The notes beneath the pieces are model-generated. The model saw nothing but the letters and a program-made list of their open reading frames with translations, was not told where the DNA came from and did no database searches. Positions 221 through 30,410 of a stretch of DNA of 42,301 nt are shown in pieces. The position numbers and the translations under genes were made by a program. Source of the DNA: Verrucomicrobiota bacterium (lineage in GTDB: Bacteria; Verrucomicrobiota; Verrucomicrobiia; Chthoniobacterales; UBA6821); NCBI GenBank assembly GCA_021413925.1, contig JAIOPL010000027.1, positions 1 through 42,301 on the forward strand, read 5' to 3'. How positions within the stretch are numbered: the stretch's first letter is position 1; the number at the start of each line of letters is the position of its first letter.

Positions 221-319
221 GAACCAAGCTCCTGGGAAGGAGCGCGGTAGACTGTGAGCGTAGCGAACAGCCCTGAAAGGGCGGCACGGCTTTGCGGGAG
301 CAAAGTGCCGTCAATGCCG
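221..319 (+). repeat. Structured intergenic repeat, copy A
   Basis: This is one of three related sequences (others at 18395-18488 and 30237-30328). It opens with AACCAAGC. Hairpin 1 is GCTCCT/AGGAGC (228-233 with 238-243) around a GGGA loop. Hairpin 2 is CTGT/ACAG (252-255 with 267-270). Hairpin 3 has GGCA (283-286) pairing with TGCC (306-309), a 3-nt bulge, then CTTTGC/GCAAAG (290-295 with 300-305) closed by a GGGA tetraloop. It ends with TCAATGCC. It may be an RNA or a mobile palindromic repeat, and the strand is uncertain. It lies downstream of, and convergent with, the O-antigen ligase-like gene. Confidence 0.7.
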
Positions 320-18124: not shown

Positions 18125-18134
18125 GTGCGACTGT

Positions 18135-18382
18135 TAGAGCGGTTTCGGTTTTATTTGACGCATGTAAAAGGGAAGAAATCTCGCGCAAAGACGCAAAGAC
18201 GCAGAGTTTTTATGACTCATGGCAACGTATCTTTGGAGACATCGGTGACAGTCTTCTCCGGACCCAATCCTTTGTCTTTTCCTCCGCGCCTTTGCGCCTT
18301 TGCGCCTTTGCGCGAGTCCTGTTATTTATCGACGGTCAAGCTGATCGCCCAAAGAACGACAGATTAAACGCAAGATGCTCTA
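18135..18382. mobile_element. MITE-like element 1, 248 bp
   Basis: Its ends are TAGAGC (18135) and GCTCTA (18382). The ~29-bp terminal regions are imperfect inverted repeats containing TGACG or TGTCG at their inner side. Inside are two long palindromic arms, 18180-18206 (repeated GCAAAGAC) and 18281-18316 (repeated GCGCCTTT). It aligns along its ends with the reverse complement of 19267-19515, which is 249 bp. TA at both ends fits insertion at TA by an IS630/Tc1-type transposase (inference). No ORF is convincing. Confidence 0.8.
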
Positions 18383-18394
18383 GCCATTTATACT

Positions 18395-18488
18395 AAACCA
18401 AGCTCCTAGGAACGAGCGCGGAAGACAACGCCGGAGTCGTTGCCCGAAGATTGGCACCGTCCGCCGGGAGGCGGATGCCATCAATGCA
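18395..18488 (+). repeat. Structured intergenic repeat, copy B
   Basis: It opens AAACCAAGCTC. Hairpin 1 is GCTC/GAGC (18402-18405 with 18414-18417). Hairpin 2 is CAACG/CGTTG (18426-18430 with 18438-18442). Hairpin 3 has GGCA (18453-18456) with TGCC (18476-18479), a 3-nt bulge CCG, then TCCGCC/GGCGGA (18460-18465 with 18470-18475) and a GGGA loop. The geometry equals copy A while the inner stem differs at five of six pairs. It ends ATCAATGC. It lies about 110 bp upstream of exoD on the same strand. Confidence 0.75.
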
Positions 18489-19253: not shown

Positions 19254-19266
19254 CGGAGTGACTCGC

Positions 19267-19515
19267 TAGAGCATTATCTAATTAATTTGTCGTTCCCGGT
19301 AAAATCATCAGAGTCGTTGAAAATACAAAGGTTCACGCGGAGGCGCGGAGAACGCAGAGTTTTTTCTAATGAAATTGGATAGTGATGATTAGCCTCCACT
19401 CATTCACTGAAATCAGACGTAATGATTTCATCTCTATCCACCGCGTTCTCCGCGCCTCCGCGTGAAACATTTCTGTCTTACTGCAAATGCGTCAGAATAA
19501 ATCAAAAATGCCCTA
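19267..19515. mobile_element. MITE-like element 2, 249 bp, inverted relative to element 1
   Basis: The left end TAGAGCAT (19267) and right end ATGCCCTA (19515) are near-inverted. Inner perfect arms of 24 bp pair 19332-19355 with 19443-19466. The end sequences match element 1 in reverse orientation: TTGTCGTTC at 19287-19295 corresponds to GAACGACAG at 18355, and ATGCGTCAG near 19491 to TGACGCATG near 18156. Together the two elements frame a ~1.38-kb unit holding repeat B and exoD. Confidence 0.8.
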
Positions 19516-19792
19516 GACACCTACGACTGGCGAGTTGAGGTAGGAATGGTAAAGACAGCCTCTTTAGGGATGCATAATCCTGGTTTATTTCGGCGTACCA
19601 TCTGGAAAAATGGAAAAAGTAAGCCTTTTCACTATGCGAAGGGTGTGGAGTGGCCATCCTTTTCACATGGTAGATTGGGTTCATGGGAAAGCTTTCAACC
19701 GCCAAGGGGAAAGACCGGATCGCCGATGCCTTGAAAATATCACTGACTTTTCCGAGTCTGTGTTTGTGAGGGTGTAAGAAAAACTCCATCCC
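19516..19792. other. Non-coding gap before the P-type ATPase
   Basis: 277 bp with no supported gene, repeat or terminator. The last bases (GTGAGGGTGTAAG, then ACTCCATCCC before the ATG) contain no usual ribosome-binding site at the normal distance. Confidence 0.4.
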
Positions 19793-30137: not shown

Positions 30138-30236
30138 GCATCAAGTCATCAAATGAAACCATGAGGATGTCAAACCCTCCAAATCCTCGAAACTAAAAAG
30201 GCTCGGAAGATCAGATGAAGAGCAAGGAGGTCAAGG

Positions 30237-30328
30237 GAACCAAGCCTCTCGAATGAGGCGCAGAGAAGTTGCCGAAGGCAAAACTGAAAGGAGGCACAGC
30301 TTTGCGAGGGCAAGGTGCCGTTCAAGCC
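30237..30328 (+). repeat. Structured intergenic repeat, copy C
   Basis: It opens GAACCAAGCC. Hairpin 1 is GCCTC/GAGGC (30244-30248 with 30255-30259). Hairpin 2 is TTGCC/GGCAA with a GAA loop (30269-30273 with 30277-30281). Hairpin 3 has GGCA (30293-30296) with TGCC (30316-30319), a 3-nt bulge CAG, CTTTGC/GCAAGG (30300-30305 with 30310-30315) and a GAGG loop. It ends GTTCAAGCC. Another hairpin, GCCGTAG/CTACGGC, follows at 30327-30344. It is located upstream of the vapB start and downstream of lipA. Confidence 0.7.
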
Positions 30329-30410
30329 GTAGTAGTCCTACGGCGAGCGATCAACACCGCAGTTGTTCCGATACCAGGCCGTAGGAGCGAGCGAGGCGAT
30401 ATCCTAAGCC

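Follow-up and report, generated by a model that had tools for sequence, protein, structure and literature searches.

A genus-wide family of four-hairpin repeats resembling miniature mobile elements in freshwater Verrucomicrobiota

Three copies of a hairpin repeat in the window

The window, a 42,301-nt stretch of DNA from a Verrucomicrobiota bacterium, contains three copies of a repeat near genes for an O-antigen ligase, a PIN-domain protein, ExoD, LexA and a lipoyl-synthase-like protein. These genes have no common theme. A preliminary description had reported three related sequences, and all three were located as described, in an alignment that agrees with it. Their starts were placed correctly, but their right ends were 3-5 nt too long; the cores span 221-314, 18395-18484 and 30237-30325. 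We label this four-hairpin repeat family E1. Its features in the window, with bit scores from a covariance model, are as follows.

221..314, + strand: copy A, the 5' GAA target plus the element CC..TCAA; 96.4 bits
224..247, + strand: hairpin P1 of copy A, CC-AA-GCTCCT GGGA AGGAGC-GC-GG, with a conserved AA/GC internal loop
248..252, + strand: unpaired tag TAGAC of copy A, conserved (WAGAC across the family)
252..270, + strand: variable hairpin P2 of copy A; all four modelled pairs covary
271..281, + strand: short hairpin P3 of copy A, CCC TGAAA GGG
282..310, + strand: hairpin P4 of copy A, CGGCA-CGG-CTTTGC GGGA GCAAAG-TGCCG, with a 3-nt bulge
310..314, + strand: 3' end GTCAA of copy A; TCAA occurs in nearly all of 81 copies
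18395..18484, + strand: copy B, 79.0 bits; the orthologous site in genome G012 (L106) is also filled
18398-18421, 18422-18426 and 18426-18442, + strand: P1, tag and P2 of copy B
18452-18480 and 18480-18484, + strand: P4 and the end ATCAA of copy B
30237..30325, + strand: copy C, 71.0 bits
30240-30263, 30268-30284, 30292-30319 and 30320-30325, + strand: P1, P2, P4 and the end GTTCAA of copy C
30190..30370 (approximate), + strand: second repeat family, E4, hosting copy C, with flanks GGCTCGGAAGATC.. and GCCGTAGTAGTCCTACGGCGA

The element is ~86-92 nt long, runs from CC to TCAA and is ordered P1, WAGAC tag, P2, P3, P4. Its consensus reads (G/C)AA, CC-AA-GCNNNN GGGA NNNNGC-GC-GG, WAGAC and P2, followed by CCC..GGG, GGCA-CNG-6 bp-GGGA-6 bp-TGCC and GTCAA. 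One hairpin adjoins each end (P1 and P4), each with 6 bp in its upper stem and a loop of GGG type. The preliminary description counted three hairpins per copy. Those hairpins are present, but P3, a short hairpin of the form CCC..GGG, had been overlooked along with the CC/GG pairs on the outside of P1, and the number is four. The geometry it gave for P4 (GGCA, 3 nt, a 6-bp stem, a 4-nt loop, the return stem, TGCC) is exact in all three copies, and two of the three P4 loops are GGGA as it stated (GGGA, GGGA and GAGG).

The window also holds other repeated DNA. At 18134-18383 lies a repeat of ~250 bp with ends CGCAAAGACGCAAAGACGCAG and CTTTGCGCCTTTGCGC; copies 95% identical to it occur genus-wide, and it is missing at the G012 ortholog. 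A 252-bp repeat with inverted ends (GTTCACGCGGAGGCGCGGAGAACGC) occupies 19265-19516 and has 97% copies elsewhere in the genome. The start of the contig (1-200) carries tandem GTTACCCATGTCCTGAACC motifs, possibly the remnant of another repeat.

Copy number, host range and conservation of shape

We searched the 2.4-Mb source genome with a gapped pattern, which gave 11 matches compared with 0 for a reversed control pattern. A covariance model built from 12 copies gave 48 matches at E up to 0.1; 41 of these had E<1e-7 and the other seven were weak. E1 is therefore repeated in this genome far beyond chance, as expected of the dispersed intergenic family proposed earlier. When the search was extended to 58 relatives, 15 of 16 same-genus genomes carried 3 to 74 copies each; the sole genome without E1 is a small assembly, 84% complete. 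Six genomes of the sister genus contained no E1. Across 213 genomes of the order, one other genus, from another family, had single weak relatives (for example, L056). An exact pattern run over 84,980 species genomes matched solely in Spartobacteria/Chthoniobacterales MAGs, and E1 was not found in viral contigs, phages or plasmids. The hosts of E1 are one group of freshwater Verrucomicrobiota.

The statement that no named family has this layout also stands. Rfam scans of E1 returned no match at the gathering score, and a permissive search with copy A gave chance-level matches. HEARO, the RNA that accompanies IscB genes, was likewise without an Rfam match among E1 sequences, and a literature search for a described Verrucomicrobia family of this type found none.

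The compensatory stem changes first seen in three copies are upheld on 80 distinct copies. When these were compared with shuffled alignments, 96.0% of cells paired versus 77.3% in shuffles, and double changes occurred in 331 cells versus 82, at 19 of 25 pairs. The covariation score was 0.487 versus 0.151, and sliding the partner by one column lowered pairing to 32-37%. Even the outermost C-G pair of P1 has become A-U in 8 copies. The sequence of E1 changes while its folded shape is kept. Mean entropy is 0.85 bit in the stems versus 0.60 bit in unpaired columns, so the fixed part of E1 is its unpaired bases: the loop GGG, the internal loop AA/GC, the tag AGA and the bulge CNG. Stem types behave as discrete alleles, exchanged whole (CTTTGC, CTTGCC, TCCGCC and CTTCCC), and the P1 and P4 stems differ between copies whose P2 is nearly the same.

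The argument that the loops are GNRA tetraloops is weak in the larger sample. Of the loops in the 80 distinct copies, 24-25 per hairpin (~30%) depart from GNRA, mostly through a change of the first or fourth base. P4 has GGGC 16 times, and P1 shows TGGA, CGGA and GGGG; the second loop position, free in GNRA, hardly varies. This pattern looks like recognition of GGG rather than a GNRA fold. Because 30% of loops break GNRA, a GNRA or RNA role for E1 is weakly supported. G.T mispairs outnumber A.C mispairs (31 versus 16, p 0.04), a sign that folding probably takes place on the written strand; this excess does not distinguish RNA from single-stranded DNA.

Insertion sites and genomic surroundings

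E1 inserts directly 3' of GAA (sometimes CAA). It neither duplicates its target nor carries terminal inverted repeats. Across 81 copies, the left flank GAA/CAA and the right end TCAA are nearly invariant. Orthologous filled and empty sites in two species (genomes G000 and G012) show the insertion directly. At an E4 site, filled L194 (G012) reads CCAAGTGA[ACC..GTTCA]AGCTGTA, compared with CCAAGCGA|AGCTGTA at empty L021 (G000). In the other direction, filled L024 (G000) reads AGGCTGAA[CC..ATCAA]TGTTGAA and empty L196 (G012) reads AGGCTGAA|AGTTGAA; read as AGGCTGAAAGTTGAA, the empty L196 site lacks ~70 further bases found in the filled allele. A third pair, L250 and L153, is similar. No bases are duplicated at these sites, and GAA is already present at empty L021, L196 and L153. 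The empty sites rule out target duplication. Apparent duplications of 4-5 bp are array units, a 7-mer giving 4 and an 8-mer giving 5.

Copy B and the copies at L017, L021, L023 and L039 are common to both species, while others are present or absent at orthologous sites. These data indicate that E1 is an old family with recent activity. Copies of identical sequence also occur at different sites in G012 (L116 and L139). In G000, the identical inverted copies L025 and L026 (C12:19087 and 23319) have swapped array flanks and look as expected from inversion by recombination between the two copies.

Copies are mostly located between genes, although up to 13 lie within predicted ORFs of at least 150 aa. 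Orientation relative to genes showed no preference among 76 copies with assignable neighbours, out of 105 with enough flank, when ORFs of 150-250 aa were used. GC skew, the guide to replication-strand bias, was weak. E1 is often inside 7-8 bp tandem arrays with units such as ACCTGAA, GGATGAATTATGAA and GTCGAGG. Its flanks are 7-bp periodic (lag-7 identity 0.342 versus 0.257 background), and insertion points share one phase within the arrays. Purine-rich tandem arrays of 7-8 bp (ACCTGAA, GGGTTGAA, GTCGAGG) were seen in most flanks, including L007, L003 and L049.

Some arrays have units lacking GAA, and the filled unit in them still reads GAA or GAG. More generally, unoccupied relatives of nested or array sites read GAG, GGG or GCG, and the filled site reads GAA or GAG. 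The left AA may therefore be part of the element and take the place of target bases; the GAA-less arrays allow either that AA is chosen in the target or that it is carried by the element.

E1 also nests with other repeats. A sister family, E2, has about a dozen distinct copies in the DNA examined and the same order: P1 looped by GGGA, a tag reading TAG (mostly as GTAG), P2, GCCC..GGGC, P4 with a G-rich loop and the end CAA. Most E2 copies are inserted after GAA or CAA. The two families insert into each other: E1 lies inside an E2-type repeat at L031 (unoccupied at L139), and E2 lies inside the P1 loop of E1 at L042 and L053. At L039, one E1 directly follows another. Copy C and several others lie inside the third repeat, E4, whose flanks (GGCTCGGAAGATC.. 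and GCCGTAGTAGTCCTACGGCGA) are common to six copies; this explains the longer flanks that those E1 copies share.

Candidate mechanisms of movement

The preliminary description left open whether the repeat is a structured RNA or the recognition hairpin of a mobile element. The filled and empty orthologous sites, insertion after GAA, nesting, restriction to the genus and lack of gene orientation favour the mobile element, and the RNA option is weak. The original observation is confirmed, and its interpretation is partly supported. E1 appears to be a new family of miniature mobile elements of the REP or IS200-derived type, with a distinctive layout.

We compared E1 with known systems. The target of IS608 is TTAC; the element goes in on its 3' side, leaving TTAC in the left flank, and is cleaved on the right at TCAA (PMC5934647). 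The guide tetranucleotides of IS608, which pair with the cleavage sites, sit 5' of each hairpin foot. Like this IS200/IS605 element, E1 inserts on the 3' side of a short, invariant target that remains in the left flank, ends in TCAA on the right, lacks target duplication and terminal inverted repeats, and has at both ends subterminal imperfect hairpins, bulged and confined to one strand. Unlike IS200/IS605 elements, its target is GAA and it packs four hairpins into ~90 nt. No tnpA or tnpB was found inside or beside any copy examined, and no Y1 transposase with matching ends occurs in E1 genomes. A left guide tetranucleotide 5' of P1, as in IS608, is not possible because the first base of the element is already part of P1.

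A REP consists of one 20-40 bp hairpin and is usually paired with another, head-head or tail-tail; REPs of the CGTC superfamily lack a dedicated transposase (PMC3733652). E1 resembles the REPs of the GTAG and CGTC superfamilies (PMC3733652) in being composed of short intergenic palindromes whose stems vary by complementary change. About a third of copies carry a GTAG-like tag before P2, and, as for CGTC REPs, no dedicated transposase was found. E1 differs in having four hairpins in fixed order and defined insertion ends. Its tag, unlike the terminal GTAG of GTAG REPs, is internal and mostly GAAG/GTAG (AAGA/TAGA), and no RAYT is flanked by E1. Like MITEs, E1 is small, non-coding and dispersed, with nested insertions, but it lacks terminal inverted repeats and target duplication; its ends, AACC and TCAA, are not complementary. 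An integron attC site is one long imperfect palindrome whose ends pair with each other. E1 is similar in length, keeps structure better than sequence and has its junction between AA and C, whereas its ends do not pair together and its four hairpins are separate.

None of the four enzyme classes we looked for is conserved with E1. Y1 transposases (PF01797) occur in 2 of 16 genus genomes, reverse transcriptase in 1/16, IS110 transposase in 1/16 and resolvase-type serine recombinases in 4/16. TnpB (PF07282), the gene with which an omega RNA would be associated, was absent from the source genome, and no convincing left-end or right-end halves were found around a gene, as an autonomous E1 would have. 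Copy number peaks in the two Y1-bearing genomes (74 and 42), yet G009 has 41 without Y1. Since each class is missing from most carriers, the mechanism proposed here is drawn from the footprint of the element only.

We give about an even chance to the reading that E1 is a non-autonomous miniature mobile element operating in the manner of IS200/IS605/REP elements, via hairpins on one DNA strand. A trans-acting enzyme would recognise the two end hairpins on one exposed strand and cut 3' of (T)GAA at the left end and 3' of TCAA at the right end. The cut strand would then be pasted into a new GAA site, by analogy with the IS200/IS605-type Y1 transposases that use TTAC and TCAA in IS608. Such an enzyme would select the shape together with a handful of fixed positions outside the stems (GGG in the loop, AGA in the tag, AA/GC in the internal loop and CNG in the bulge), leaving the stems free to drift pairwise. 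In most genomes, it could be lost, divergent or supplied from outside. If target bases are replaced by the AA of the element, as the nested and array sites suggest, this would not fit IS200/IS605 chemistry. The same miniature element might instead be moved by a conservative recombinase, IS110-like or serine-recombinase-like, that exchanges strands at a two-base AA core (ends AA-CC..TC-AA) and converts the target dinucleotide to AA. The near-invariance of AA at both ends fits such a core, as does its absence at the insertion point in relatives (GAG in L139 versus GAA in filled L031; GGG or GCG units in TCGA arrays). Identical L025 and L026 both start GAG in different arrays, as if the end travels with the element. 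However, the scarcity of IS110 transposases and resolvase-type recombinases and the GAA already present at the three empty orthologous sites argue against it, and we consider this exchange unlikely. A wider proposal, which we rate as rather doubtful, joins E1, E2 and the relatives from the order's other family into one four-hairpin superfamily. Its mover would be an unrecognised enzyme, not a Y1, IS110, serine recombinase or reverse transcriptase, that reads nucleic acid in its folded form and inserts after GAA.

Could E1 be transcribed into a structured RNA, whether as a family of non-coding RNAs or as an element spreading via RNA and reverse transcription? The very strong covariation, the compact four-helix fold and some G.T excess on one strand would suit an RNA. 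The indifference to gene orientation, the lack of an Rfam match, the single genome with reverse transcriptase, the frequent GNRA violations and flanks so variable that no shared promoter is visible make this quite improbable. We think it very unlikely that the covariation is partly mutational, with template switching during replication letting hairpin arms copy each other and no folded product needed. Stem types exchanged as discrete units, and near-identical P2 alongside differing P1 and P4 stems, would be expected from such copying. However, it does not account for loops, internal loop, bulge and tag that stay fixed while stems vary, nor for site-specific insertion, and the excess of single G.T over A.C intermediates points to a constraint on one strand. 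Strong hairpin covariation in a repeat does not by itself prove a functional RNA.

E1 is thus a genus-wide family, absent from Rfam and the literature searched, with exceptionally clear covariation and clean insertion sites but no resident enzyme of the four classes conserved alongside it. What mobilises repeats that lack a transposase, a question posed for CGTC REPs (PMC3733652), therefore becomes testable in one tractable genome set.

The Y1 genes were rejected as movers of E1: both are flanked by their own repeats and neither is bracketed by E1. At L078 (G006 C33), a RAYT-like Y1 gene lies between its own GGGGTCAGTGT and ACACTGACCCC inverted repeats and has landed inside a truncated E1, within the P1 loop. 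At L012 (G000 C6:175432-178626), a Y1-type transposase reading frame lies amid several copies of a different hairpin, GCGCTCCAACGGGGTGAACCCGTTGGGGGCGGC, with which it likely forms a REP/RAYT pair.
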